Translations under genes and position numbers: made by a program
Part shown: in pieces, positions 4,410 to 28,158 of the stretch
How positions within the stretch are numbered: position 1 is the first letter of the stretch
Layout of the letters: every line of letters begins with the position of its first letter
The notes under the pieces: generated by a model
What the model was told of the DNA's origin: nothing
The model's input: only the letters and a program-made list of their open reading frames with translations
Database searches by the model: none
Assembly (NCBI GenBank): GCA_019113165.1
Contig: DXHV01000025.1
Location: 1 to 48,734 of the forward strand
DNA: 48,734 bases
Direction of reading: 5' to 3'
Source of the DNA: Candidatus Desulfovibrio intestinipullorum
GTDB lineage: Bacteria > Desulfobacterota > Desulfovibrionia > Desulfovibrionales > Desulfovibrionaceae

Positions 4410-5759
4410 ATGGCGTTCTGGTCATCCATTGCACAACACGAAAATCCTTCGTTCGATCCGGCCTCCCTGCCCAGGCAGCCGTTTCTGAGAAGTCGCCAGT
4501 ACCGCCTGAGCGACCACTTTCCCTGGAAGGAGAGCCTGCACTTGAGCTGCACGCCTGTGCTGCTTGCCGCACCGGCCCTGCTTGCACGTCTTGGCACGCC
4601 CCTGCAGCCGCCGCAGCAATTCCCAAAGACGCCCACCAGGGGCGAAGACCTCTCCCTCTTTGCCGGCATCCGCAGGCTTGTGGCCCTGTATCGCGGTCTT
4701 GGCCTGGAGCCCCTTGTCCTGGCAGGCCATGGCCAGGAATTTGCCCGCTGCAACCCCTACACTGAGGACTTTGCCTGGCAGCTCTGCTGTGAAGGGATCC
4801 GCCTCTGCCTGGCCAATCCGCAGGAGAGCCTGTGGAATACCCTGAAAAAACTCACAGCCTCATCCATCATCCTGCACCCTGTCTCCTATCCCTTCCTGCG
4901 ACGCAGCGGTCTTGTGCTCTTTCTCAATGGCTGTGCCGAAGAAGTCCGGCACAGGACAGATCCCCTGGCCTGCAGGCCCTGGTCTGCGTCAGGGGCTGGC
5001 TGGCCCCTCTTCCTCAATCAGGCCCTGCTCAACCTGCTGGCAGATCCTTCGGCAGGCGACCTTGAGCACAGGCTGCTTTGCCAGATACAGGGCACGGGTC
5101 GCTCCAGTCTTTCCGTGCCAGACGCATCGGGCAGGGAAGAGTCCGTGTGCTGCGCAGGCCTTGATGCGGCAGATGATCTCTGCTGCGTGCACCTCACCGA
5201 TCCCCTGACCTTCTCCCAGGCCGAACAGGCAGGCTCACGGCTCACGCCTGGGGAAGCCCAGCGGCTCCTGCGCAGCGTGCACGTTCCCGAACGGGGCATT
5301 GCCCATGCCACGGCCGTGGGTCATGTTGCGAGAGCCCTGGCCCAGAGAGCCCGTCTGCGCGGGAAAAAACTTGATGCGGAACTTGCCTGTGCGGCAGGCT
5401 ATGTGCATGACATTGCCAAGGGCTTTCACCGTCATGAACTCATAGGCTCCCTGTGGCTCAACTACCTGGGCCTGGGCCAGATGGCCCACTGCATGAAGGA
5501 CCACAGGGACCTTGTGCTGGCAGATTCAAAACCCGTCACGGAGCGGGAACTGGTCTATCTGGCAGACAAGTACTGCTACGGACCGCGCCATGTGCCCCTG
5601 GAACAGCGCTTTGGTCAGAAGATGGCCCTTTTTGCCAGCAATCCCCATGCCGTGGCAGGCATACAGAAGCGCCTGCGCCATGCCAGGGAACTTGAGGCAC
5701 GGCTCACCCGGGAACTGGGAGAGAGCCCTGACCGCATTGCCTTCAATGCCCTGAAATAG
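4410..5759 (+). CDS. Degenerate MobA-like domain fused to HD phosphohydrolase domain
   Basis: A 449-residue two-part protein. The C-terminal third is an HD domain: His299, the His-Asp pair 333-334 in YVHDIAKG, and Asp386 in YLADKY form the expected metal site. The N-terminal 290 residues weakly resemble the MobA-like nucleotidyltransferases that make molybdopterin dinucleotides: segments like IILHPVSYPFLRRSG and GWPLFLNQALL match the later part of that fold, but the LAAGxSxRMG nucleotide-binding motif is absent, so catalysis by this part is doubtful. The start at 4410 follows GGGGAGG; an upstream ATG at 4293 has none. It is first in a plus-strand run with a histidine phosphatase and XdhC, a grouping I associate with the DVU_1551-type accessory set for molybdenum hydroxylases. 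The HD assignment is firm; the MobA relation is inference. Confidence 0.75.
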   Translation: MAFWSSIAQHENPSFDPASLPRQPFLRSRQYRLSDHFPWKESLHLSCTPVLLAAPALLARLGTPLQPPQQFPKTPTRGEDLSLFAGIRRLVALYRGLGLEPLVLAGHGQEFARCNPYTEDFAWQLCCEGIRLCLANPQESLWNTLKKLTASSIILHPVSYPFLRRSGLVLFLNGCAEEVRHRTDPLACRPWSASGAGWPLFLNQALLNLLADPSAGDLEHRLLCQIQGTGRSSLSVPDASGREESVCCAGLDAADDLCCVHLTDPLTFSQAEQAGSRLTPGEAQRLLRSVHVPERGIAHATAVGHVARALAQRARLRGKKLDAELACAAGYVHDIAKGFHRHELIGSLWLNYLGLGQMAHCMKDHRDLVLADSKPVTERELVYLADKYCYGPRHVPLEQRFGQKMALFASNPHAVAGIQKRLRHARELEARLTRELGESPDRIAFNALK

Positions 5760-5916
5760 AGGGCACGATTCAGTTACTGAACAAGGGCAGGCCCGCTGCC
5801 AGGATCCGGCAAACAGGGGATCCTTTGGAGGCTCCTGCCTGGCACCATCTTCTCTTCTGTTCCACCTCTTGTGCGTTCTTCGCCCTTATCGCCGCCTACA
5901 ATTCAAGGATTTTTTC

Positions 5917-6531
5917 ATGCCGACAGCAAACAGTGACGCTTCAAACCAGCAGGGCATTGTGCTCCTGCGCCACGGAGAACTTGTTCCCAACCCCGAACAC
6001 CGCTTCATAGGCCAGAGAGACGTCGAACTCTCCTCTGCAGGCACAGCCCGTTTCGAGGCCCTGGGAGAGGAACTGGCCAGGGAATTTGCCGACAGGCAGC
6101 CCCAGGCCTTTTTCTGCTCGGATCTGCGCAGAGGCATAGCCTGTGCGGACATTGTGCGCAGGGCCTTCAGACCCAGAGGCGGCACCATGCCCGTCATTGC
6201 CGATCCGGGCTTTCGCGAAATCAACCTGGGCGCCTGGCAGGGACTGACCAAGCAGGAAGTGGAACAGCGCTATCCTGGCGCCCTGGCCGAACGCGGCGCA
6301 GACTTTGCCAACTATGCCCCTGCAGGCGGAGAAAGCTTTGCCATGCTGCAGCGCAGGGCCCTCATGGCCCTGGTCCGGGCCCGCATGCACACGCCCACGG
6401 GCATCATCTTTGTCATAGGCCATGCGGCCTTCAACCGCTGCATCCTGGCCGACTATCTGGCTCTGCCCCTGTCAGAGGCCATGAACATTGCCCAGCCCTA
6501 CGGAGCCGTAAGCTTTCTCGAACAGCGCTAG
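5917..6531 (+). CDS. Histidine phosphatase superfamily protein (phosphoglycerate mutase-like)
   Basis: A 204-residue phosphatase of the branch-1 histidine phosphatase superfamily. The phospho-accepting RHG is at 18-20 (LLRHGE), the conserved glutamate at about 101 (FREINLGAWQG) and the second catalytic histidine at 169 (VIGHAAFN). Relatives include alpha-ribazole phosphatase and cofactor-dependent phosphoglycerate mutase; the size fits a small-molecule phosphatase better than a glycolytic mutase. The start at 5917 follows AAGGA; an upstream ATG at 5869 has no such site. It lies between the HD-domain gene and xdhC in the same orientation, so a role in molybdenum-cofactor nucleotide chemistry is plausible, but the substrate is unknown. 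Confidence 0.9.
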   Translation: MPTANSDASNQQGIVLLRHGELVPNPEHRFIGQRDVELSSAGTARFEALGEELAREFADRQPQAFFCSDLRRGIACADIVRRAFRPRGGTMPVIADPGFREINLGAWQGLTKQEVEQRYPGALAERGADFANYAPAGGESFAMLQRRALMALVRARMHTPTGIIFVIGHAAFNRCILADYLALPLSEAMNIAQPYGAVSFLEQR

Positions 6532-6591: not shown

Positions 6592-7671
6592 ATGTCCATA
6601 GTGGAATCCATTGGCCATGAACTTGCAGCCAGAAAGAATCTGGCTCTTGTCAGTATTGTCAAACAGCTTGCCTCGGCGCCACGGCATGCCGGAGCCTCCA
6701 TGCTGGTCGGAGAGGAAGGCCTGCTGGCCGGAACCATTGGCGGCAGCATCCTGGAAAAACAGGCCATAGAAGCCGGCATGCGCGTTGCCAAGTCCGGTGT
6801 GGCCGAGTTCATGGATTTTCAGCTCTCCGGCACTGATGCCGCCAGCAACGGCATGATCTGCGGAGGCTCCATGCGCGTCTTTGTGGAGCCCTTGCGTCCC
6901 GACGGCCCCACCACCGTGCTCTTCCAGCGCCTGGCCATTGCCCAGGGCGTGGGCGACGACATGTTCAGTGTCGTGCCCGTGGTGGCGCCCGGCGCCAGGC
7001 GCCTGTGCCGCAAGAAGGCAAAAACCTGGCCCCTGCCCACGGAACTGAGCGCCCTTGTCCGGGAAGAACTGGAGAAGAACGATCTGGCAGCGCCCCTGGA
7101 ACTGGAAGACTCCCGCGGTCAGCGCTTTGTCATCGAGCCCTGGCCCGGCCCCTGGCGCCTGCTCTGCCTTGGCGGCGGCCATGTGGCCCTGGCCACGGCA
7201 CGACTGGCCGCCTCCACGGGCTTTACCGTCTGTGTCCTGGACGACAGGGAAGAATTTGCCAGCAAAGAGCGCTTCCCCATGGCGGCCGTGACCAGGGCCG
7301 TGCCGGAGTACGAGGACTGCCTGGCAGGCATTGCCACCGAAGAAAAGACCTTCATTGTCATCATGACCAGGGGCCATGTCTATGACAGAAAGGTGCTTTC
7401 GCAGGCCCTGCGCACCCAGGCCTCCTATATCGGCATGATTGGCTCGAACAGGAAGATTGCGGCCACCTTTGCAGGTCTTAAGGAGGAAGGCTTCACGGAC
7501 GAGGATCTCGCCAGGGTCACGGCGCCGGTGGGCCTTTCCATTGGTGCGGAAACGCCCGAAGAGATTGCCGTGAGCATCATGGCCCAGCTCATTGCCACAC
7601 GCTCGCTTCTTCAGGGCACGGATCGCCATCTGAATGCCGACCTGGCAGGCCGCGTGCACAAGTTCGGCTAA
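6592..7671 (+). CDS. XdhC/CoxI-family molybdenum hydroxylase maturation protein
   Basis: A 359-residue protein with the XdhC N-terminal domain (about 15-100, with the HAGASMLV and GTIGGSILE segments and a conserved Cys90 in MICGG) and the C-terminal Rossmann domain (GGGHVALATA, about 194-203; YIGMIGSNRK further on). XdhC proteins bind the molybdenum cofactor, protect it during sulfuration and insert it into xanthine-oxidase-family enzymes. The likely client here is the aldehyde oxidoreductase at 24233-26962, the only such enzyme in the window. AGGAG lies 9 bases before the ATG. It is the last gene of the plus-strand accessory run that starts at 4410. Confidence 0.92.
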   Translation: MSIVESIGHELAARKNLALVSIVKQLASAPRHAGASMLVGEEGLLAGTIGGSILEKQAIEAGMRVAKSGVAEFMDFQLSGTDAASNGMICGGSMRVFVEPLRPDGPTTVLFQRLAIAQGVGDDMFSVVPVVAPGARRLCRKKAKTWPLPTELSALVREELEKNDLAAPLELEDSRGQRFVIEPWPGPWRLLCLGGGHVALATARLAASTGFTVCVLDDREEFASKERFPMAAVTRAVPEYEDCLAGIATEEKTFIVIMTRGHVYDRKVLSQALRTQASYIGMIGSNRKIAATFAGLKEEGFTDEDLARVTAPVGLSIGAETPEEIAVSIMAQLIATRSLLQGTDRHLNADLAGRVHKFG

Positions 7672-15990: not shown

Positions 15991-17346
15991 CTACAGGGGC
16001 ACATGACAGCGTTCGCCTTTTTTCGGATGGATGATGTCGCGTGTCCCTGGGGCAAAGCGCCCGAGCAGACGGTCTATGCGCGAGAGGGGACTGGTGCAAT
16101 TGCACCTGTCTATCCGCAGACTGGCTGCATCCCCTGTCCGGTAGCGCACAAGGGGCATGACCTCCTGGCGCAGGGTGGTGAGAACCAATTCCCCCACTTC
16201 TCCTGGGGGCAGGATTTCCCCAGTCAGAGGATCAATGATTTCGCAGAGTACATCGGCATGACGGATGTGGTAGCCAGTCTTGCCCCGGCACTCCAGAGCA
16301 CAGCCAAAGCAGGTCTCGGTGATGCCGTAGTGGTCCAGCGTGGCCACCTGCCAGTTTTTTTGAGCCTGTTGCAGCAGGGAGTGATCGCACCAGTCGGCAC
16401 TCACAAGGAAGGAACGCAAACGCCCTGGTGCCTTGTCTGGAAAGATGTGCAGCAAAGTCTGCAACTGTCGCGGAGCAAGAACAAGACTGGTCGGAGAAAG
16501 CTTCGCAATGGTTTCCTGTACAACCTGATCGGAGGCAGCGGAAGGCAGGGCATGCACCGTGACGCCCAGAGGGGAGAGTCCCCTGTTCAAGAGGTCGGCC
16601 ACGCCATCCGGGCGTTCTGCCCCGGGCAGGCAGACAAGAAGGACATCGCCGTTGCCCACAATCTGGGCCATGCCGGCTGCAAAGAATTTTCTGGTGCGCT
16701 CCAGGTCCCGCACACTGAAGGCCAGACGCTTGGCTGCGCCCGTGGAGCCAGAGGTGGTCAGGGTTACGATGCGGGCCACTTCGTCCTGACTCGTACACAA
16801 AAAGCGTCTGTAGTCGCCGGCAATGTCCCTGCCTGAAGTGAGTGGCAGGGTGGCAAGGATTTTACGAACCGGAGCAAGCAGGACAAATTCGCTCTCGTCC
16901 AAAGCAACTGTGCCAGGAGCCTCCAGCATGGTCTCCCAGATCTGCCGGCAACTTTGCTGCAATTGCATGAGAGAAGATTGGTACGGAGCAAGGAGGGTGC
17001 GGTAAAAAAGCGAACCGAAGCCCTGCCGCTTTTCCGTCCCAAGACAGCCCAGACGTTCAAAAAGCCGGACCAGCAGCCGTGCCTGCAGGGCAGCAACCGC
17101 CCTGCCTGGCAACCCTTGTGCCTCTGCAAATCCCTGTTCTTCCCAGGCTCTGGCAAAGAGGGGATCATGCAGATCCCGCACACTTTCCCTGGCTTCGCTG
17201 CTCAGGAGAAAATCCTGCGGTCCCAGGGAATGTTCCCAGACTTGTCCGTAGCTTTGTCCGCAGACTTGGTCCGAGACCTGCCCGGCTCTGTCCGCTTCCC
17301 GTGCACTCGCGTTTGTGTTCTGTTCTGGCCTTGCATGATTCGACAT
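15991..17346 (-). CDS. AMP-dependent ligase, PaaK-like, without C-terminal domain (DVU_1553 type)
   Basis: A 451-residue adenylate-forming enzyme. The P-loop TTSGSTGAAK is at 197-206, the YGITET segment at about 338-343 and YRTGD further on. Relatives activate a carboxylate as an acyl-AMP, then form a CoA thioester. The protein stops at about the hinge (RIDRLLGRF, then 20 residues), so the mobile C-terminal domain of about 100 residues that carries the catalytic lysine is missing; no other frame downstream encodes it. Residues 1-150 are a long extra N-terminal region. It is the last gene of the minus-strand unit with the radical SAM protein. NCBIfam has, as I recall, a DVU_1553 family of AMP-dependent CoA ligases in this exact context. 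The substrate is unknown. Confidence 0.85.
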   Translation of the reverse strand: MSNHARPEQNTNASAREADRAGQVSDQVCGQSYGQVWEHSLGPQDFLLSSEARESVRDLHDPLFARAWEEQGFAEAQGLPGRAVAALQARLLVRLFERLGCLGTEKRQGFGSLFYRTLLAPYQSSLMQLQQSCRQIWETMLEAPGTVALDESEFVLLAPVRKILATLPLTSGRDIAGDYRRFLCTSQDEVARIVTLTTSGSTGAAKRLAFSVRDLERTRKFFAAGMAQIVGNGDVLLVCLPGAERPDGVADLLNRGLSPLGVTVHALPSAASDQVVQETIAKLSPTSLVLAPRQLQTLLHIFPDKAPGRLRSFLVSADWCDHSLLQQAQKNWQVATLDHYGITETCFGCALECRGKTGYHIRHADVLCEIIDPLTGEILPPGEVGELVLTTLRQEVMPLVRYRTGDAASLRIDRCNCTSPLSRIDRLLGRFAPGTRDIIHPKKGERCHVPL

Positions 17347-17488
17347 GCGTCCCTCGCTCTTTTTTCCTCTCTTGTCCTGGCCTTATCTTTTGCGTCCTTC
17401 TGCATTGCTTCCAGTCCCCTGCTTCTCCCAAAACGGGAAACAGGGCGGTGCAATGCGTGTCATGATCTGTGCTCCGGTTGCAGAGGAC

Positions 17489-17878
17489 TCAGGATGCAGC
17501 CTTATGGCCCTGTGTACCGGCCTCGTCCCCGGGAGTCTTATCCTTCGGAGTCTCGTCCTGCAGGCCCTCTTCCTTGGGAGTCTCGTCCCTGGAGGCCTCA
17601 CCCTTCTGGCCTTCTTCAGCCTGTGCCTTCTGTTGTGCCCTTTGCGCGGCCAGTTCTCTGGCAAAGCAGTGGGTACAGAGGGCAAGCTGCGGATACTCTA
17701 TGCCAAACTGCTGCAGCATGAGCTCCCGTTCTCTGGCACTGGCACAAGGCAGGATGCCAAAACGGCCGTTTTGCGTGCCATTGATGCCGCAGTCATCGGA
17801 CAGGGTGCTGGCCGCATGGATGGTATTGGTGTAACTGTTGATGAGAAAGATTTCGCCAAGAACGTTGTTCGTAAACAT
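17489..17878 (-). CDS. Small cysteine-containing protein between radical SAM and ligase genes
   Basis: A 129-residue protein I do not recognise. The first 85 residues look like a folded domain (motifs LSDDCGINGTQNGRFGILPC and a CTHC pair at about 68-71), then a charged low-complexity tail follows with repeats of DETPK. It starts 72 bp after the radical SAM stop, ends 142 bp before the ligase start and is on the same strand, so it is probably part of the unit. The ribosome site before the ATG is poor. It is in the same frame as the radical SAM gene, with open sequence right back to that gene's TAG stop, but no start codon lies in between. It may be an unannotated partner in this gene set, or a chance frame. 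Confidence 0.55.
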   Translation of the reverse strand: MFTNNVLGEIFLINSYTNTIHAASTLSDDCGINGTQNGRFGILPCASARERELMLQQFGIEYPQLALCTHCFARELAAQRAQQKAQAEEGQKGEASRDETPKEEGLQDETPKDKTPGDEAGTQGHKAAS

Positions 17879-17950
17879 GGATGTCGGACCCGTGAATGAA
17901 TGGAAGTTCCAGGATAGTGTGCTGAGCCAGACAAATGCAGAAAAGAGACG

Positions 17951-19384
17951 CTAGCTCTGTTCCTGCAGTCTGTCTGGATAGAGGGGGATGCCGGTGAGGC
18001 TTGTCATGTTCTGGGCACAGAAGGGCACCATGCGACCATCCGGCCGCACAATATGGATGCAGCATCCGCGCAGGCGTTCTATATCAAGGCTCAAGGCATC
18101 CTGAAAGGCCATGCAGGAAAGGGTAAAGCGCCGGTCCGCACTGCGTTTGTCCAGGAATCTGGAGAAGGCATCCTGTCCGCCTCCGCAGCACAAGGAGGCG
18201 GGCTTTTTCGTCTCACTGCTCTCGCCGCAGCATGAGCTGCCCAGGCCTGGCCGGCTCCACTGCCTGGCAATGAAGGCCTTGGCCACTCTGGAGCCTTCTT
18301 CGGCCCGTATGCTCTGTTCCCCATGCAGGGCCGTCACACTTTCCTCCAGAACAAGGTCCTTGCCAACCCGTGCATAGACAGACGAAAAACTGCACAGGGA
18401 GTGTTCGCAGCAGGGTGGATGAAAGTCGCTTGCTTTAATCCATTCCGGCGCCTGACTGGCCAGGGTCTGCATGACATGGCCTAAGGTGAGCCTTGGACTG
18501 TGCACGACATCAACCGGACTTCTGCCAAAATAGGAGGCAGGCTGCAGGTGCAGGCCCCGTACCACCGGACCACGGCCTACGGCATCGCGCAAAAGATCGC
18601 CCAGTTCCTGATCATTGACGCCCTTCACAAGGGTGGCCACCAGTACCACACCAAGGCCTGCCGCAGCGCAGTTGGCAAGGGCTGCTTCCTTGATTTCCCG
18701 CAGGTTGGGCACACGTGTGCCCCGGAAATAGGCAAGAACGTCTGCTTTGAGGGAATCCCACTGCAGATAGACAGAGTCCAGTCCGGCCTCGGCAAGCTTG
18801 CGGGCATAGTCCTTGTCCTGTCCCAGTCGCACGCCGTTGCTGTTCACCTGCACGAGCGGAAAGCCCAGAGCCTTTGCCTCTCTGATAATGTCCGGCAAGT
18901 CTTCCCGGACCGTGGGCTCGCCCCCGGAAAGCTGCACATTGCAGGTACCGGAGCGGGCCAGCAGATTGGCCAGCATGGCACTGATGGCTGCTCTGGACGG
19001 GTCCTTGGGGATCTCGCCCTCCCCGGCACTGGCATAGCAGACCGGACAGGCCAGGTTGCAGCGCATGGTCACTTCCAGAAGGCCGTGACAGGTGTGCTGG
19101 GCATGGGCCGGGCACAGGCCGCAGTCATAGGGACAGCCCCTGTCCAGATCCGTTGCCGGATCCTGCGGATAGGAAGGGGTCTTGGTCACCTTCCACTTCT
19201 GAAAGGGCGTAATGTCCGGCGCCTCCTTGGGCGACGGCCAGATGCAGGTGGCAAACTCTCCGTGCTCCGGGCAGGTTCTGGAAAGCAGCACGGCGCCGTC
19301 TGCATCATTAATATAGTACGCATCCAGCCTGCGCAGGCATACGGGACACAGGGACTGTGTCGCGTAGAGAATGTCCCGGCTCAT
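17951..19384 (-). CDS. trsS: Radical SAM protein of the TrsS / MJ0619-like group
   Basis: A 477-residue radical SAM enzyme. An N-terminal cysteine module has CPVC (13-16) and CPEHG (38-42), then CPYDCGLC (84-91). The [4Fe-4S] motif CNLACPVC has Cys109, 113 and 116, followed by SGGEPT (153-158). This order is that of the archaeal pterin methylase MJ0619 and the tetraether synthase group, which make C-methyl or C-C bonds at unreactive carbons. The C-terminal part has more cysteines (CCEHSLC at about 335, SSCCGES, LCCGG). NCBIfam calls the bacterial form in this context radical SAM (seleno)protein TrsS; here I find no in-frame UGA, so it is a cysteine form. Start chosen at 19384 because AAGGAGG precedes it; the frame opens further upstream without a site. 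Confidence 0.88.
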   Translation of the reverse strand: MSRDILYATQSLCPVCLRRLDAYYINDADGAVLLSRTCPEHGEFATCIWPSPKEAPDITPFQKWKVTKTPSYPQDPATDLDRGCPYDCGLCPAHAQHTCHGLLEVTMRCNLACPVCYASAGEGEIPKDPSRAAISAMLANLLARSGTCNVQLSGGEPTVREDLPDIIREAKALGFPLVQVNSNGVRLGQDKDYARKLAEAGLDSVYLQWDSLKADVLAYFRGTRVPNLREIKEAALANCAAAGLGVVLVATLVKGVNDQELGDLLRDAVGRGPVVRGLHLQPASYFGRSPVDVVHSPRLTLGHVMQTLASQAPEWIKASDFHPPCCEHSLCSFSSVYARVGKDLVLEESVTALHGEQSIRAEEGSRVAKAFIARQWSRPGLGSSCCGESSETKKPASLCCGGGQDAFSRFLDKRSADRRFTLSCMAFQDALSLDIERLRGCCIHIVRPDGRMVPFCAQNMTSLTGIPLYPDRLQEQS

Positions 19385-19430
19385 GACCGACCTCCTTGAG
19401 GGGATGGCAATGCACTTCCCTGGCAAATGG

Positions 19431-19904
19431 CTAAAGCGTGTCTTCGCCACTGTGGGCCATGGGGTCCAGGCCATAGTTTTCGACAAGCTCGCCTATCTTG
19501 TCCCAGCAGTCGGCCAGAAGCTCGCCACAGGCCACCTGGTTGAAGGTTCCGTCCGCTTCCCTGCTGCCCAGACCTGCGGCCACCTGCGGACAGGTCCAGC
19601 CGCCATATTCTTGTGTCCTTTCGTAGAACCAGGTCGCGTACTCGTTGAGCAGAGGCGTGAGCATGCTTTCCGCCTCCTCTCCGTCCCGGCCCTTGCCGGC
19701 CAGAAAGGAGAGCACGCAGGCGCCACCGGTAAGCAGTCCGCACGGCCCCTCGGACTGGCCAATGCCGTGACACAGGCCCTGCATGGCCCGCATGAGACCG
19801 GGATTTTCCTCGCCACGGGCATTGAGGAGGAGCTGCAAAAGGAGCTGGCTGCAGCAGTAGCCCTCGCGGACAGCAGGCATCAGATCGAGCAGGACTGGAT
19901 TCAT
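19431..19904 (-). CDS. C_GCAxxG_C_C family protein (DVU_1555 type)
   Basis: A 157-residue redox-type protein with the C_GCAxxG_C_C pattern: Cys17-Cys18 in GYCCSQ, CGLLTGG (55-61) with Cys63, and Cys126 and Cys133 near the end. Members of this family are thought to bind a metal or take part in electron transfer; no activity is established. The start at 19904 follows GGGAGGG; an ATG at 19955 has no such site. It lies 46 bp upstream of the radical SAM gene and is probably the first gene of that transcript, because a terminator for the tRNA (19982-20026) sits just before it. NCBIfam has a DVU_1555 family of this type in the same neighbourhood, from memory. Confidence 0.85.
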   Translation of the reverse strand: MNPVLLDLMPAVREGYCCSQLLLQLLLNARGEENPGLMRAMQGLCHGIGQSEGPCGLLTGGACVLSFLAGKGRDGEEAESMLTPLLNEYATWFYERTQEYGGWTCPQVAAGLGSREADGTFNQVACGELLADCWDKIGELVENYGLDPMAHSGEDTL

Positions 19905-19981
19905 GATTCCCTCCCAGGGAATTTGTCTGGCGCTGCCCCTGTCTTTGGGCAACACGCGCAGGCTGGCTCAAAAAAGGACAC

Positions 19982-20026
19982 AAAAAAACGGTCCCTGCGA
20001 GATGACAACCATCAGACAGGAACCGT
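19982..20026 (-). terminator. Rho-independent terminator of the tRNA gene
   Basis: A 10-bp stem with one wobble (19988-19997 with 20017-20026) is followed on the minus strand by seven T (19982-19988). It lies 16 bp past the tRNA 3' end. Confidence 0.85.
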
Positions 20027-20041
20027 GAACGTGCAAATATG

Positions 20042-20117
20042 TGGTGGGCCCGCTAGGACTCGAACCTAGAACCAGCCGGTTATGAGCCGGAAGCTCTGCC
20101 AATTGAGCTATGGGCCC
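20042..20117 (-). tRNA. tRNA with CAU anticodon (Ile2 or elongator Met)
   Basis: The 76-nt gene folds as a cloverleaf with encoded CCA: acceptor GGGCCCA, D stem GCTC/GAGC, anticodon loop CTCATAA, T arm CTAGG-TTCGAGT-CCTAG, then discriminator A and CCA. The anticodon is CAU. It is not an initiator: it has no row of three G-C pairs next to the anticodon loop as in tRNA-fMet. C4-G69 and C5-G68 in the acceptor stem match the pairs that the lysidine synthase TilS needs in tRNA-Ile2, so Ile2 is possible, but elongator Met is not excluded. Two pairs are mismatched: A7-C66 and U27-C43. Confidence 0.9.
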
Positions 20118-20130
20118 GCCAAAAAGTGCT

Positions 20131-20158
20131 TTTATGCTTGTTCCCTGTCTTCTGTCAA
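20131..20158 (-). promoter_or_regulatory. Promoter of the tRNA gene
   Basis: On the minus strand TTGACA (20153-20158) is followed after 16 bases by CATAAA (20131-20136), 13 bp before the tRNA 5' end. The fit to a sigma-70 promoter is good. Confidence 0.75.
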
Positions 20159-20245
20159 GTCTGTTACAATTGGCAAAAATCGCGACGCCACATCTCTGGC
20201 CTCTTCAGGCACGGCCGGCTTTCCCCGGTCGTTTCAGGAAGTGTT

Positions 20246-21106
20246 TCACTCCGAAACTTTTCGTGCAGCCCAGAGACCGTAGCCAAAGCGCCTGCGATCG
20301 GATGCACAGCTGCACTGGCCCCCTGGCAGCAGCCAGTCCAGATCGCCGGCACAGTCGTACCAGACAAGCTCGGCGACCAGACGCGCCAGGGCCTTGCTGT
20401 GATCCTCGCGCACGGCCACGCTAAAGCCCGCTCCCTGAAAGCGTTCTTCCCACTGCCAGGGAAAGAGCGCTCCGGCAAGGCAGCTTGCGCCCTGCTGCAA
20501 AAGCTCCTGGCCATTGTTCTCTGCCTCGCCGGATGGAGCGGGAGCAGTTGCTGCCTGCACCTGCGCAAACTCCGGTCGCAGCAGGAGATCCGTGACCAGC
20601 AGCAGGCTCCCTTTTTTGAGGACACGGGCACATTCGGCCAGGCACTTAGGGGCATCCACCAGGGAGAGCACGCATTCGGCCACACAGGCGTCCAGGCTCT
20701 GGCTGGCAAAGGGCAGACTGAGCAAATCGCCACAGACAAAGCGGGCCTGGCTCTCCAGACTTTTCTCGCCTGTGTGCGAGGCGCAGGAAGTTTGTGCTGC
20801 ACCCTCGGCGTCTTCTGTCCCCCCTGCCCCTTCAGCTTCCTCTTCGGGACTGCTGCCAGACCAGGGGCCGGGATGCCAGTCCAGGCCCACGGCCTCATAG
20901 CCCAGGGCAGTACACAACTGGGTCGTTGCTCCGGGGCCGCAGCCAAGATCCAGGACGCGGGCTCCTGGGCCAAGGCCCAGGGTTTCCAGGATCCTCAGGC
21001 CGTGCTCCGTGAGGGCAAGGCCGCCAGGGCGCAGGGTGTCTCCGGCCACGGCCCTGAAGGAGGCTGTGCCGTACAGGGGCCTGGTCTGGACACTACTTGT
21101 CCTCAA
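20246..21106 (-). CDS. SAM-dependent methyltransferase (DVU_1556 type)
   Basis: A 286-residue class I methyltransferase. Motif I is VLDLGCGPG (51-59), an acidic end of strand 2 is seen at GLDWHPG, and the CGDLLSLPF and LARVLKKG-type segments follow. An acidic, Gly/Ala-rich insert (about 84-115) breaks the usual spacing after strand 2. The C-terminal part has no other domain. The start overlaps the end of the upstream zinc-ribbon gene by 14 bp, so the two are probably translationally coupled. In the D. vulgaris-type cluster a DVU_1556-family methyltransferase occupies the same place, from memory. The methyl acceptor is unknown; candidates are the product of the radical SAM enzyme or a small thiol or metalloid. 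Confidence 0.85.
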   Translation of the reverse strand: MRTSSVQTRPLYGTASFRAVAGDTLRPGGLALTEHGLRILETLGLGPGARVLDLGCGPGATTQLCTALGYEAVGLDWHPGPWSGSSPEEEAEGAGGTEDAEGAAQTSCASHTGEKSLESQARFVCGDLLSLPFASQSLDACVAECVLSLVDAPKCLAECARVLKKGSLLLVTDLLLRPEFAQVQAATAPAPSGEAENNGQELLQQGASCLAGALFPWQWEERFQGAGFSVAVREDHSKALARLVAELVWYDCAGDLDWLLPGGQCSCASDRRRFGYGLWAARKVSE

Positions 21107-21311
21107 CCAGGGCCTCCACTTCCTGCATCTTGCCCTCGGCCAGATACTCGGGGATCAGGGTCATGCCGCACTTGGGACAGCGCGGCAGGGTCACGTCAAA
21201 GGCACTTTGCAGATAGAGGGCCTGCACCTTGATCTGTTCCAGCGGCACGCGGCAGCGTCCGCAGATCCAGGTGCCGTGGTCCGGCGCAAAATTCTGTTCT
21301 TGTCGCAGCAT
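21093..21311 (-). CDS. Small zinc-ribbon/redox protein (DVU_1557 type), copy 1
   Basis: A 72-residue protein with two CxxC knuckles: CGRC (17-20) and CPKC (45-48), a zinc-ribbon or rubredoxin-like metal site. The line ICGRCRVPLE-...-CPKCGMTLIPEYLAEGKM is shared with the next gene. GGGAAGG precedes the ATG. It overlaps the methyltransferase gene. I recall an NCBIfam DVU_1557 family redox protein in this context. It could carry electrons between the FAD/Fe-S protein and a partner, or just structure a complex. Confidence 0.82.
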   Translation of the reverse strand: MLRQEQNFAPDHGTWICGRCRVPLEQIKVQALYLQSAFDVTLPRCPKCGMTLIPEYLAEGKMQEVEALVEDK

Positions 21312-21416
21312 ACTTTACCTTCCCTCTCAAGAAGCTGTCAGATGGCAGCGCAGACAAAAGGCTACAAGAGAAGTACAGACAATACAAAAACTACAGATAC
21401 GAATTTTTGACTGGAA

Positions 21417-21659
21417 CTACACGCCGTTCCAGGTCTCTTCCATGCGCTTTTGCATGTCCACCATGCGGCCTTCGGCCAGAGGCTTGGGCACAAGGGTGAG
21501 TCCGCACTGCGGGCAGCGGGCAAGCTGCATGAGCAGGCCACCGTGGGCATAGCGCGTGGGCACGCTTTCCACTTCCAGGGGCCTTTTGCAGCGTCCGCAG
21601 ATCCAGCGCCGTTCCTTCACGGCACTCTCCTGTTCCATGGCTTGTTCCCTGCTGTCCAT
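21417..21659 (-). CDS. Small zinc-ribbon/redox protein (DVU_1557 type), copy 2
   Basis: An 80-residue paralogue of the gene at 21093-21311. CGRC is at 21-24 and CPQC at 49-52, and the common frame is WICGRC, PLEV, RCPxCGxTLxPxxLAEGxM. The start codon overlaps the upstream oxidoreductase stop in a TAATG junction, which implies coupled translation; the longer frame that starts inside the upstream gene is a shadow. The two copies are about 40 percent identical by eye and 105 bp apart, which is a tandem duplication that has diverged. Confidence 0.85.
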   Translation of the reverse strand: MDSREQAMEQESAVKERRWICGRCKRPLEVESVPTRYAHGGLLMQLARCPQCGLTLVPKPLAEGRMVDMQKRMEETWNGV

Positions 21660-24046
21660 TACCGGCCCCCGGAAATGCGACCGCGTTCGTCCTCGGTCTG
21701 CTTGGCAAAGGCCGTGCTGGCCACTTCGCCGCCGGCGCCGGGCACGCGCATGCGGTGGCACCAGGCATCGTGCACCACATAGGTGCCGTCCTCGTCCTGG
21801 GTGTATTCCACCCAGAAGGTCACATTGCGGGGCCTGTAGCTCGTGAGCCTGTGGCCGGAATCAAGATCCTCGAAGAAGGCACCGCTGCGCTCGCCAAAGG
21901 CCAGCGTTGCTTCCACGTCTTCCTGCAAAATGTGCTTTTCTTCCAGCTTGCGCAGCATTTCCTCGGCATAGCGCATGCGTGCCTGCGGTACAGGCTCAGG
22001 GATGACCTCGCCAGCCAGCACATGGGAGAGCAGGCGCCGGACTTTTGCTCTGGCAGCCCGTCTGGCAGAAAGACTGGTGGAATCTTTCGCTCCGGTCTGA
22101 TCACAGGCCGGTCCGAAGGGCAGCAGGTCCAGGATGTGCCAGCAGGCCACGCCCTGATCGGCAATGCGCTCGCGGCACATGATGCAGCTTGCCAGGGACG
22201 GTCCGCCAAGGCCCTCGGCACGCAGTCTGGCCATCTGCCTGGCTGCTTCCGGATCCGAGCACCACTGATTGCCGCCATAGCCGCAGCAGGCCGTCGTCAG
22301 GCCCGTGAGTTCGGGCTCGGTCACTTCCACGCCGCACTTCTTCGCCAGGCTTCGCACTGCCTTCTGCCAGCCTTCGTCGCGGCGGGCAGAACAGGGATCC
22401 TGCACCACCAGGGTCTGCGGATGATCGGCACGGTCCGCTCTGGCTGCAGGCAGGGCCTGGTTATCCAGGACTTCCCAGAGGGACACACTTTCAAGTTCAG
22501 GCAAAAATTCCCTGAAAATGGAGAGACAGGAGGAACAGGCCGTGATGAGGCGGGGATTGCCCATCCTGGCAAGAGCTTCCTTCATGCCTGCCACATGCTC
22601 GGCAAAGCGCTTTGTTTCGCCTGCCCAGTGGGCGGGAATGCCGCAGCAGGAGAGATAGATGCCCGTGCCCCCTGGCAGATTGTCTGCCAGGTACTGATAG
22701 ACGGCTGCCACCTGATCCGGCCGGCAGCCCGTAAGCTGACAGCCCGGGAAGAAGACCTGGGCCGGTGTTTCCGTCTGCGTGCCGGGGTGCACGAAAAGAC
22801 AGGGATCCGTGGAGGCCGACTCCATGTCCTCCATGGCAAACTCGAAGGCACTCTGGGGCATAAAGCCCTTGTGCACCATGTCTTCCCTGGCAGCCAGACA
22901 GAGGTCGGCCATGGAAAAGTGCTCTGGGCAGAGTTCCTCGCACAGGCGGCACAGGGCACAGCTGTCAATGAGGGAATTGGCCTTGCGTATGCCCTGGGCA
23001 ATGGTGAGATTGTTGAAAATCATGCGCGCAAAGACACGCGGATAGCCCTTGTACTTCTGCATGTAGGCACAGGCCTTCACGCAGATGAGGCACTGGCATT
23101 CCAGGCAGCGCCTGGCCTCGGCCTGTACCTCTTCCCTTGTCAGCGTTCCCTCGTGGGGGACAAGACGCGGACTGGGCTCTATGCCGTCCAGAATCATGGC
23201 AGGGCTTCTGGTCTCCCGCTCGCGGGAAGCCGTGAGCGACACGTGCGTTGCCAGTCGCTCCATGGTCACGGCTGCCGTGCGGCCTTCGCCGCCGCTGCGT
23301 GCGGCCGAGACAAATGTGTGGCCCGTGGGCGTGGTCTCCTTCCAGCCGCCGGCGCAGACCTTGCTGTCCCCTTCCTGCCAGAGCAGGGTCAGGGGATCGC
23401 AGGCCTCCCTTGCGGGAGCGATGTCGCACTGCGAGGCATCCACAAAGACGGCGTCTGCCGAGGCACAGAGCTCGTCCAGAAGGGCTTGATCAAGAGCCGG
23501 CACTTCCCTGAAGGTCACCTTGCCAGCCAGAGCGGCCCATTCGGCCGCAGGACCGCGCTGATCGTCCCATTCTTCGGCAAGCTTCGGGAACTGTGCCTGC
23601 AGGGCCGACTCAGGCGTTCCCGTATGACAGCAGACAACCGTATAGCCCTTGCCTGCCAGGTCGGCCGCACAGACCAGGCCTGCCACGCCCGTGCCCATGA
23701 TGGCCATGGTCTGGCTTTTCCTGCGCACCGGAAAGCCTGCGCCAGCTACCGGTTCCTCGCGCACAAGCCAGGCTTCCAGGCTGCCAATGGCCAGAGGTCC
23801 GCCCAGGTTGGCCCGCAGGCAGCTGCTTTCACAGGGGTGCTCGCAGATGCGGGACATGATGCCAGGCAGGGGCAGGACTCTTTGCAAAAGCTTGCGTGCT
23901 TCACGCGCATTGCCCTTGCCAAGCTGGACAAGCACGCCCTTGATGTCCACGTTGAACGGGCAGAGAACCTGGCAGCGCGGGGGATTGTCCTGGCTGCAGC
24001 GGGCTTCCAGGGCATGCATGCCCTGCTGATCAAGAGTGACGGCCAT
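21659..24046 (-). CDS. FAD-dependent oxidoreductase with Fe-S dicluster and CCG domains (DVU_1558 type)
   Basis: A 795-residue composite electron-transfer protein. In order: a GltD-like cysteine domain (Cys17, 25, 29, then CEHPCESSC at 68-76), an FAD-binding Rossmann motif GTGVAGL (118-124), a ferredoxin-type dicluster (CLECQCLICVKAC at about 325-337 and CALCRLCEELC at about 367-377), and two CCG-type domains as in heterodisulfide reductase HdrB/HdrD (FFPGCQLTG with CCGIPAHW, and CCGYGG with CIMC). A C-terminal segment of about 130 residues has no assignment. It would pass electrons between a nicotinamide or flavin donor and a thiol/disulfide or hydroxylase partner. AAGGAG precedes the ATG. 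It is the next gene after the aldehyde oxidoreductase. Confidence 0.88.
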   Translation of the reverse strand: MAVTLDQQGMHALEARCSQDNPPRCQVLCPFNVDIKGVLVQLGKGNAREARKLLQRVLPLPGIMSRICEHPCESSCLRANLGGPLAIGSLEAWLVREEPVAGAGFPVRRKSQTMAIMGTGVAGLVCAADLAGKGYTVVCCHTGTPESALQAQFPKLAEEWDDQRGPAAEWAALAGKVTFREVPALDQALLDELCASADAVFVDASQCDIAPAREACDPLTLLWQEGDSKVCAGGWKETTPTGHTFVSAARSGGEGRTAAVTMERLATHVSLTASRERETRSPAMILDGIEPSPRLVPHEGTLTREEVQAEARRCLECQCLICVKACAYMQKYKGYPRVFARMIFNNLTIAQGIRKANSLIDSCALCRLCEELCPEHFSMADLCLAAREDMVHKGFMPQSAFEFAMEDMESASTDPCLFVHPGTQTETPAQVFFPGCQLTGCRPDQVAAVYQYLADNLPGGTGIYLSCCGIPAHWAGETKRFAEHVAGMKEALARMGNPRLITACSSCLSIFREFLPELESVSLWEVLDNQALPAARADRADHPQTLVVQDPCSARRDEGWQKAVRSLAKKCGVEVTEPELTGLTTACCGYGGNQWCSDPEAARQMARLRAEGLGGPSLASCIMCRERIADQGVACWHILDLLPFGPACDQTGAKDSTSLSARRAARAKVRRLLSHVLAGEVIPEPVPQARMRYAEEMLRKLEEKHILQEDVEATLAFGERSGAFFEDLDSGHRLTSYRPRNVTFWVEYTQDEDGTYVVHDAWCHRMRVPGAGGEVASTAFAKQTEDERGRISGGR

Positions 24047-24232
24047 GTTTTCTCCTTATGTTGAGCCCTGCCTGACAAGCCAGGGATTTCCGCAGGCTCG
24101 CTCGCCGAGCCCGGGCTCCGGGACCTGTCTTTCGGGCGCCTGGCGCAAAAAGAAAGAAAGGGGGAATGAGTGTGACCCCATCCCCCCTGGTTTTTACTCA
24201 GTCTTGGACAAACTGAAAAGGCGTGTCAGCGC

Positions 24233-26962
<2,730 letters not shown>

Positions 26963-27022
26963 GAAGCCCTCCTGTTGGGAGCTGGACCGACCATCCATGT
27001 CTGCCCCAAGGAGACATGATAC

Positions 27023-27045
27023 GACAAAAAAGGAATTTTTTTGTC
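27023..27045. promoter_or_regulatory. A/T hairpin in the mop leader
   Basis: GACAAAAAA (27023-27031) pairs perfectly with TTTTTTGTC (27037-27045), 60 bp upstream of the mop start and 70 bp past the MoeA-like stop. It could act as a weak terminator between the two genes on either strand, or as an operator. A TTGACT (minus) lies near 27057-27062 but without a good -10. Confidence 0.35.
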
Positions 27046-27114
27046 TAAGGCCAGAGACGATCAGTCAAAAAATATATTGATGTCACGTTGTTGACTGCAT
27101 TTCAGAGGGTTCTT

Positions 27115-28158
27115 CTAGGAACCTGCTCCGAAGCTGCAGACAGGATAGTGACATTGAGCGCAACTGCGGCAGAAGCCTCCGTAGCCGAGACGCTGCATGT
27201 CTGCGGCCTGCAGGTGCTGTCCTGCCAGAAGGCGGGGCACCACGATGTCGAAGATGCTGGTCTTGCAGTACATGACACAGCCTGGCAGGCCGAGCACGGG
27301 CACGCGGCCCTGCGGGGCTTCTATATAGGAAAGCAGGAACATGGCGCCGGGATAGACAGGAGCGCCGTAGCAGATGATCTCGGCACCGGTGCGGCGTATG
27401 GCCGTGGGCGTCTGATCATCGGGATCCACGGACATGCCGCCTGTCACGCAGACAAGGCCGCAGCCCCTGTTCACAAAGTCCGTGATGGCCTGTGCCGTGA
27501 ACTCCGGATCATCCCCGGAGAGCACCTGCCCTTCCACGGGGCAGTCAAGGTCGGCAAACTTCTGGCGGAGCACCGGTCCGAAGCCGTCCTTGATGCGGCC
27601 CTTGAGGACTTCATTGCCTGTGGTGACAATGCCGACCTTCGGGCTGGCAAAGGGCAGCACCGAGAGCACGGGACGCGTGATTTTCTGCTCCATTTCCAGA
27701 AGCAGGCTTTCGTCCACGACCAGCGGTGTCACCCTTGTTCCTGCAACCGCTTCGCCCTGACGCACCCGGATGTTTCCGGGCAGTGTGGCCAGGGTGATGT
27801 CTCCCAGGGCATTGAGGCAGAACAGAAGCTCCCTGTCTATGCTGAGCAGTCCGTTGCAGTCTGCCACAAAGTTGATACGACCCTCCTTGGGGTCCGTACA
27901 GGAAAGATGTTCGCCGGCCACACAGCGGGCTATGCGCCAGGCCGCGTCGTTTTCATGCACCATGCCGGGCTGTGGTTCATAGACATAGAGGTGTTCCTTG
28001 CCCACATCGAGCAGAACGGGAATGTCCTCTTCCGTCACCACGTGTCCCTTGCGGAACACCGGGCCCTTGCTCTCTCCCGGCACAATCCGGGTGATGTCCT
28101 GACAGAGAATGCTGCCGACAGCTTCCTCCACGGCAATGGTCTTCATGGAAAAACGCAT
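27115..28158 (-). CDS. MoeA-like molybdopterin-binding protein with C-terminal cysteine cluster
   Basis: A 347-residue protein with the MoCF/MoeA molybdopterin-binding fold: VGIVTTGNEVLKGRIKDGFG (about 195-214) and GGMSVDPDDQTP (about 252-263) are the classic loops. MoeA proteins insert molybdate into molybdopterin; this form is shorter than E. coli MoeA (411 residues) and lacks its domain order, so it may be a client-specific version. The C-terminus has an unusual cluster, CRSCAQCHYPVC, with Cys330, 333, 336 and 341, fit to bind zinc or an Fe-S centre. Start at 28158 chosen for AAGGAG before it; a second ATG at 28146 is possible. It is upstream of mop on the same strand. Confidence 0.85.
   Translation of the reverse strand: MRFSMKTIAVEEAVGSILCQDITRIVPGESKGPVFRKGHVVTEEDIPVLLDVGKEHLYVYEPQPGMVHENDAAWRIARCVAGEHLSCTDPKEGRINFVADCNGLLSIDRELLFCLNALGDITLATLPGNIRVRQGEAVAGTRVTPLVVDESLLLEMEQKITRPVLSVLPFASPKVGIVTTGNEVLKGRIKDGFGPVLRQKFADLDCPVEGQVLSGDDPEFTAQAITDFVNRGCGLVCVTGGMSVDPDDQTPTAIRRTGAEIICYGAPVYPGAMFLLSYIEAPQGRVPVLGLPGCVMYCKTSIFDIVVPRLLAGQHLQAADMQRLGYGGFCRSCAQCHYPVCSFGAGS

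Follow-up and report, generated by a model that had tools for sequence, protein, structure and literature searches.

The molybdopterin-dependent aldehyde oxidoreductase (Mop) of Desulfovibrio, known from solved structures (PDB 1dgj and 1sij), has been much studied, and its place in metabolism is vague. Here we describe a gene set at 15,991-28,158 on the minus strand of a 48,734-nucleotide stretch of Candidatus Desulfovibrio intestinipullorum (assembly GCA_019113165.1, contig DXHV01000025.1, positions 1 to 48,734; hereafter the window; source genome 2.77 Mb, 87 contigs, 98% complete), in which Mop shares a run with genes for the radical S-adenosylmethionine (SAM) protein TrsS, an adenosine monophosphate (AMP)-dependent ligase, a methyltransferase, small cysteine-rich proteins and an iron-sulfur protein with CCG motifs. 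The protein families themselves are already defined by NCBI (NCBIfam NF045645, NF045646 and NF045663-NF045669; DVU_1551-DVU_1557/TrsS), and the conserved members in the window match them, most above the curated cut-offs. As an earlier sequence-only reading of this DNA had stated, the model names give no pathway; they are also silent on a Mop-free TrsS clade, on partners of the HGD-D and MtaA-like kinds, on the absence of an NAD(P)H domain and on ligase truncation, all of which are described below. No function for TrsS was found in the literature searched; its primary description (Haft and Tolstoy 2025) lies outside that search and may cover parts of the neighbourhood. The portions of the enzyme literature on Desulfovibrio Mop that were available make no mention of a link to TrsS.

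Comparison with the closest described systems shows both likeness and difference. The window Mop resembles the Desulfovibrio enzymes over nearly its full length (1610 bits against 1dgj and 1351 against 1sij) and contains PF02738, PF20256, PF00111 and PF01799, that is, MoCoBD and two [2Fe-2S] parts. We take F425, F494, L497, R533, Y535, L626 and E869 of the D. gigas enzyme to be its substrate and catalytic residues; these seven positions are kept in 62-67 of the 67 Mops from the compared loci, so that the predicted aldehyde site is the same across phyla. Judged by these relatives and the conserved site, the window Mop would oxidise an aldehyde; the evidence agrees with the earlier statement that the substrate is not known. 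TrsS has in common with Tes and with HMPTM pterin methylase an N-terminal zinc ribbon (PF23545) and a radical SAM core, and differs from Tes by its score against the Tes model NF045702 (327 bits, cut-off 450) and by its neighbourhood. The iron-sulfur protein ('diclust') has two C-x(30-46)-CC-x(25-42)-CxxC motifs like those of HdrB/GlpC-type proteins, but here they are part of a fusion with a flavin adenine dinucleotide (FAD)-type domain, which has no NAD(P)H site, and with a C-terminal domain of about 90 residues. The ligase shares its AMP-binding core with the phenylacetate-CoA ligase PaaK (4r1l, 130 bits for a relative) but lies far below the PaaK cut-off (81.5 vs. 646.3) and has no C-terminal domain.

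In one even draw of 297 genomes of the phylum, with matches counted above curated cut-offs, we found TrsS and the ligase in 33 genomes each and Mop in 26. TrsS and Mop were both present in 25 genomes; 8 had TrsS without Mop, 1 had Mop without TrsS and 263 had neither (Fisher p = 2 × 10−28, relatedness not corrected), bearing out the co-occurrence that the sequence-only reading had put forward as a check. One of the eight TrsS-only genomes (G134) contains a Mop fragment and another (G281) has TrsS on a contig of just 4.9 kb; in the sole Mop-only genome (G269), Mop is truncated by a contig end. Among the matches listed, which name 32 of the 33 ligase genomes, the ligase exceeded its cut-off in 31 of the 33 TrsS genomes, and the ligases of G248 and G290 scored 289 and 275 bits against a cut-off of 300. 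Looser Mop relatives alone (741-832 bits, cut-off 1100) occurred in 9 genomes, none of them among the 33 with TrsS, indicating that the link is specific to Mop proper.

That over-cut-off Mop is nearly always accompanied by TrsS (25/26) is what could be expected if the TrsS core modified Mop or its molybdenum cofactor, and the MoaA-like similarity of TrsS (72-74 bits) points the same way. We consider such a maturation role improbable: the core is present where no molybdenum hydroxylase exists, the MoeA-like protein, nucleoside triphosphate (NTP) transferase and XdhC already suit the cofactor task, two Mops of the family have been solved, and the available part of PMC10223205 mentions a cytosine-dinucleotide pterin and nothing beyond it.

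In a cross-phylum scan using one genome per species, the best 80 of 574 candidate stretches came from Desulfobacterota, Bacillota, Chloroflexota, Synergistota, Spirochaetota, Acidobacteriota, Myxococcota, Alphaproteobacteria and archaea. Hidden Markov models built from relatives of the window genes identified, in these 80 loci, the ligase in 66, methyltransferase in 61, diclust in 60, C_GCAxxG in 52, Mop in 50, zinc ribbon in 40, NTP transferase in 35, XdhC in 29, phosphatase in 29 and MoeA in 20, with many loci cut by contig ends, small open reading frames (ORFs) easily missed, and at least two locus pairs sharing a contig (L162/L075 and L141/L099). TrsS and Mop (at least 1000 bits) were both visible in 44 of the 80 loci: in 43 of these Mop is upstream of TrsS and co-oriented with it, and in 42 the two are within 8 kb of each other; TrsS and the ligase lay less than 60 nucleotides apart or overlapped in 81 of 100 loci with both. 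Two genomes (G118 and G323) contain two over-cut-off Mops each and one TrsS each. A chance placement of a Mop operon next to an unrelated radical SAM operon would fit G324, where the two modules lie on separate contigs, but it is scarcely credible against the association across 297 genomes and the same gene order in many phyla. The gene set is a real, widely conserved microbial redox system: the claim that it forms one system is upheld by the strong co-occurrence and by the operon itself, and the lack of a conserved neighbourhood, named beforehand as grounds for doubt, was not what we found.

The same reading had made Mop the core enzyme and had named genomes with TrsS and the ligase but no molybdenum hydroxylase as evidence to the contrary. 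We searched 30 genomes, chosen mostly for a TrsS locus without Mop, for PF02738, which reports any molybdenum hydroxylase; one of the 30 (G269) has Mop and no TrsS, and the pair G181 and G335 appears to represent a single genome. No PF02738 match was found in 10 of the 30, namely G105 (100% complete), G161 (99%), G069 (98%), G138 (90%) and G241 (85%), together with G328, G330, G339, G340 and G341, for which completeness is not stated. All ten contain TrsS (in G069 as a partial frame) and a ligase match; each of the remaining 20 has at least one hydroxylase. Because the TrsS core occurs in genomes without any molybdenum hydroxylase, Mop appears to be a partner that can be exchanged, and the centre of the system appears to lie elsewhere.

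A tree of 55 TrsS rows (IQ-TREE, rooted on Tes-like proteins) contains a Mop-free clade of 11 bacterial and 5 archaeal rows (ultrafast bootstrap 100, Shimodaira-Hasegawa-like approximate likelihood ratio test 99), which a quicker tree of the same rows recovered with support 99; in a comparison with label shuffles, 0 of 500 were as low. The 55 rows were hand-picked after the first trees and include 5 of 22 archaeal rows, the root is a distant outgroup, and the window's own TrsS branch is long; the earliest tree had truncated outgroup rows and is not relied on. The rows of hydroxylase-free genomes that were placed in the tree all fall in the Mop-free clade. Mop exceeded its cut-off in none of the 15 genomes of this clade, four of which (G155, G334, G335 and G336) have other, lower-scoring hydroxylases (421-799 bits). 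Since the Mop-linked rows are paraphyletic around the Mop-free clade, Mop linkage looks ancestral and left once; the tree shows one change of Mop state, with L145, L111, L147 and L136, whose state is unclear, excluded from the count. A core role of Mop therefore holds for one part of the TrsS tree and fails in the Mop-free clade. Of the 22 genomes on the Mop-linked side with no Mop at the TrsS locus, 14 have an over-cut-off Mop elsewhere, one has a Mop at 1099.7 vs. 1100 bits, and two have fragments.

Direct inspection of the diclust protein bears on how Mop and the core may be joined. The window protein passes the cut-off of NF045663, whose name is pyridine nucleotide-disulfide oxidoreductase/dicluster protein, yet we found in it no Pyr_redox match (Pfam) and no NAD(P)H Rossmann motif. 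The family scan sees such a domain where present, as an intact Pyr_redox_2 was detected in a relative at 40,943-43,273 of the same window. A GGGNxAxD-type NAD(P)H motif occurs in 2 of 78 long diclust copies, L143 and L159, both Mop-free; in an alignment, all 29 other rows lack the Rossmann insert of these two. Where an FAD motif and a 4Fe-4S (ferredoxin) motif were both found, they are 180-213 residues apart, vs. 363 in the L143/L159 type. Of 77 copies, 69, that of the window among them, have two CCG motifs and 8 have one. The C-terminal part of about 90 residues is a separate gene in Mop-free loci and is lacking from the diclust of L143 and L159. In the Mop-free locus L146, the CCG gene is free-standing and follows a NuoF-like gene, which would be an alternative NADH input. 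The CCG part thus appears constant and the electron input appears to vary between Mop, an NAD(P)H domain and NuoF, and it is chiefly on this basis that we place Mop upstream as the electron source. Dozens of proteins bear a name that needs correction in view of the missing domain, whose absence also makes a prediction about electron flow.

We tentatively favour, with somewhat less than even confidence, an arrangement of two modules in which electrons pass from Mop through diclust to a carrier, X. In the partner module, Mop and its cofactor kit (MoeA-like protein, NTP transferase, XdhC and perhaps the phosphatase) would oxidise an aldehyde, and the core module (TrsS, AMP-ligase, methyltransferase, DUF7479 protein and the domain of about 90 residues, with the C_GCAxxG protein in most Mop-linked loci) would make or service X. 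Diclust would bridge the two: with its NAD(P)H domain gone, electrons from Mop would enter the FAD/Fe-S part in place of those from NAD(P)H and leave at the two heterodisulfide-reductase-like CCG sites, reducing X. This carrier may be a disulfide, a protein with a Cys pair (DUF7479, for instance) or else a small molecule produced by TrsS, methyltransferase and ligase. Gene content, co-occurrence, the Mop-free clade, the absent domain and the CCG motifs are direct observations; we infer the direction of electron flow, the existence and nature of X, and the action of the latter three proteins in one pathway. According to the available part of PMC5640608, the first of two Mop/CCG/4-Cys/C_GCAxxG sets of Clostridium ljungdahlii rises on syngas and/or H2/CO2, and its authors, who report that quinone synthesis genes were not found, suggested that the CCG pair meets a membrane-bound carrier. 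Tying Mop to a radical SAM core that lives on without it shifts the question from 'which aldehyde?' to the product of the core and whether aldehyde oxidation feeds it.

Several observations weigh against this arrangement. The carrier X was not seen, and in the accessible portion of PMC10223205 flavodoxin is the putative partner of Mop, which would bypass diclust. Two loci (L109 and L110) have Mop without a nearby diclust, and not every diclust copy was shown to have all parts, as the FAD pattern as written matched 60 of 78 copies and the C-terminal signature 35 of 78. Since their C-terminal part is missing, the diclust proteins of L143 and L159 may represent fusions recruited independently, in which case they would not reflect the ancestral state. 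The zinc ribbon was found in only 26 of the 44 Mop loci and C_GCAxxG was not found in several Mop-free loci, small ORFs being easily missed in both cases, and at 100 bits the archaeal loci have no diclust or other CCG protein and no Mop (0/22). On the Mop-linked side, five genomes (G281, G331, G344, G642 and G644) have no Mop over the cut-off and no fragment. Finally, the Mop-free group was first seen in earlier trees with poor support (0.198 in a FastTree of all 138 rows), and it was after these low-support trees that the clade was tested on chosen rows.

The strongest of the rivals is a catabolic pathway, in which TrsS and the methyltransferase act early, Mop turns an aldehyde into an acid and the ligase forms a coenzyme A (CoA) thioester, with a 2-hydroxyacyl-CoA-dehydratase-type enzyme and a MaoC-like hydratase taking over in Mop-free species; we regard it as possible but unlikely. 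It accords with the HGD-D proteins and BadF-type activase encoded beside TrsS in four loci of two phyla (L071, L076, L146 and L248). We detected the HGD-D type in 6 of the 12 Mop-free-branch genomes vs. 0 of 24 chosen others (p = 5 × 10−4), in a comparison whose query came from the Mop-free clade, in which some genomes are kin without correction for kinship, and whose 24 other genomes include four relatives, from the order of G105, without TrsS match; the match in G161 is weak (157 bits only). On contigs C2, C20, C23, C28, C33 and C45 of G105, we observed seven matches of one HGD-D type, alongside a single TrsS. A FAS1/MaoC-like gene adjoins the ligase, or sits between TrsS and ligase, in L101, L074 and L146, as the catabolic pathway would predict, but this type is unspecific and was rejected as a partner marker, since G371, which has no over-cut-off TrsS, contains 31 copies. 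Regulation and transport could also be read in favour of catabolism: seven loci from Clostridium, Acetobacterium and their kin have a sigma-54 activator gene next to the operon, with weaker instances in others; −24/−12 sites scoring at least 9 of 10 precede 5 of 70 operons vs. 0.65 expected from shuffles (the site before the window's operon, 7 of 10, is at chance level); and the Mop-free locus L159 contains a TRAP transporter gene, while L145, on the Mop-linked side, has an NMT1-like gene. The transporters, however, vary between loci, it is hard to see what the small Cys proteins would do in catabolism, and the archaeal loci have the core without any of these enzymes.

In archaea, TrsS exceeded its cut-off in 47 of 101 sampled genomes of the order containing a Methanomassiliicoccaceae genome. 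An MtaA-like URO-D protein precedes TrsS in 22 of 22 archaeal loci, a protein that fuses the domain of about 90 residues with DUF7479 lies between the two in 21 of 22, and a ligase is nearby in 21 of 22; the bacterial methyltransferase and C_GCAxxG were, like diclust and Mop, found in none of the 22 at 100 bits. The URO-D protein keeps an HxCG...C pattern, which forms the zinc site in MtaA-type methyltransferases, and scores far under the curated cut-offs of MtaA-type families (49 bits vs. 244). Bacteria and archaea therefore share TrsS, the ligase, the domain of about 90 residues, DUF7479 and some methyltransferase-like protein, and the archaeal trio of methyltransferase-like protein, fused small protein and TrsS offers a pared-down form of the core for study. 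Within L229-L247, we also observed a ZnuABC-type zinc transporter preceding the URO-D-TrsS genes in several loci and a DUF169 gene near TrsS in 13.

These differing partners are accommodated by a further reading, which we think rather unlikely, in which the TrsS core makes an undescribed redox cofactor (a thiol or small electron carrier) shared by unrelated enzymes. It would serve Mop in most bacteria, an ATP-driven reductase of the dehydratase type in certain Chloroflexota and Desulfobacterota, and, among archaea of the Methanomassiliicoccales type, methyl metabolism. Species with Mop linkage would then have swapped NAD(P)H for aldehydes as the electron source of the cofactor.

The best solved relative of TrsS is tetraether synthase (7tol, 435 bits), which, with the 327 bits against the Tes model, would be consistent with lipid chemistry, in which TrsS couples or methylates alkyl chains, HGD-D/BadF proteins are ether-forming reductases and Mop clears fatty aldehydes; the available part of PMC11868695 describes Tes homologues in bacteria and the ester-reducing Ger. 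This explanation is quite improbable, given that TrsS stays under the Tes cut-off, that no lipid gene was found among the annotated bacterial neighbours (only part of the neighbours being annotated), and that the opposite strand carries the PcrB/UbiA genes seen close to archaeal ligases. The window TrsS is an open frame with no internal stop, and thus no in-frame TGA for selenocysteine; as the family NF045646 is named (seleno)protein, Cys forms of TrsS count as members. A NifS-like aminotransferase gene was seen just before TrsS, or before the small gene preceding it, in L120, L124, L172 and L174.

The C-terminal domain of ANL ligases carries a catalytic lysine. The window ligase ends 45 residues past its RYRTGD motif and lacks this domain, and thereby the lysine. 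Among 103 ligases, 13 are short (42-69 residues past RYRTGD, the window included), the long form accounts for 78, and the remaining 12 do not show the motif as written. Eleven of the 13 short ligases come from the window's family or from Desulfovibrio- or Mailhella-labelled records and the other two (L094 and L095) from family f20; the long form is present in L087 and L088 of that same family and in L103 of the window's genus. The short ligases keep the core motifs, and their short tail often holds KGG. Away from TrsS in G290 (L106, 3901-7343), a DVU_1553-type ligase gene is closely packed with genes for an EPSP-synthase-like protein and the GTP cyclohydrolase FolE2. The DUF7479 proteins (window 21,093-21,311 and relatives) end in EDK in 79 of 90 copies, and this fixed end suggests a docking or modification site.

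Table 1. Genes of the set and associated features in the window, identified by NCBIfam and Pfam profile scans against curated cut-offs; module assignments are those proposed in the text.
Feature	Coordinates	Strand	Evidence and proposed module
MoeA-like molybdopterin-binding protein	27115..28158	-	PF00994 74 bits; partner module, Mo cofactor
Mop, molybdopterin-dependent aldehyde oxidoreductase	24233..26962	-	NF045668 1566 bits, cut-off 1100; partner module
FAD/4Fe-4S/double-CCG protein (diclust), without NAD(P)H domain	21659..24046	-	NF045663 804 bits, cut-off 530
DUF7479/DVU_1557 zinc ribbon, copy 1	21417..21659	-	NF045645 56 bits, cut-off 60; PF24292 66 bits
DUF7479/DVU_1557 zinc ribbon, copy 2	21093..21311	-	NF045645 91 bits; core
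DVU_1556 class I SAM-dependent methyltransferase	20246..21106	-	NF045667 170 bits, cut-off 155; core
tRNA-Met (cat) inside gene run	20042..20117	-	ARAGORN; Rfam RF00005
DVU_1555 C_GCAxxG_C_C protein	19431..19904	-	NF045669 149 bits, cut-off 103; PF09719 71 bits
TrsS radical SAM protein	17951..19384	-	NF045646 537 bits, cut-off 490; PF04055, PF23545; core
Small Cys-containing ORF	17489..17878	-	no Pfam/NCBIfam family
DVU_1553 AMP-dependent ligase	15991..17346	-	NF045666 317 bits, cut-off 300; core
DVU_1551-like NTP transferase	4410..5759	+	NF045665 159 bits, cut-off 315; partner module, Mo cofactor
Histidine phosphatase	5869..6531	+	TIGR03162 111 bits, cut-off 163
XdhC-family maturation factor	6592..7671	+	NF045664 336.5 bits, cut-off 350; partner module, Mo cofactor

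The order of the minus-strand genes given by the sequence-only reading was reproduced by the profile scans and reading frames, as was the plus-strand group 8 kb away, there called HD/MobA-like, phosphatase and XdhC (Table 1). The NTP transferase is well under the DVU_1551 family cut-off, with relatives that sit in the operon, and XdhC is marginally short of its own; the phosphatase matched generic histidine-phosphatase models only, every match being below cut-off. In several relatives, the XdhC, NTP transferase and phosphatase genes come after the ligase, with the phosphatase following the NTP transferase, so that the distant position here looks like a local rearrangement; MoeA-like orthologues directly precede Mop in several relatives. 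The two zinc ribbons of the window are duplicates. The tRNA gene splits the run between the methyltransferase and C_GCAxxG genes; no tRNA was found at the corresponding place in 12 relatives scanned, and an Rfam scan of the window and six relatives returned tRNAs only.

The small Cys protein had been counted as a member of the set. An ORF is indeed present, with a codon-position base composition similar to that of adjacent genes, but it has no family, and the sole solid tblastn match over the compared loci was the window's own copy (L011). It therefore probably lies outside the conserved system, and it accounts for the 605-nucleotide gap between TrsS and the ligase in the window. Elsewhere in the window, a YcaO protein with TPR repeats is encoded at 34,800-36,659.

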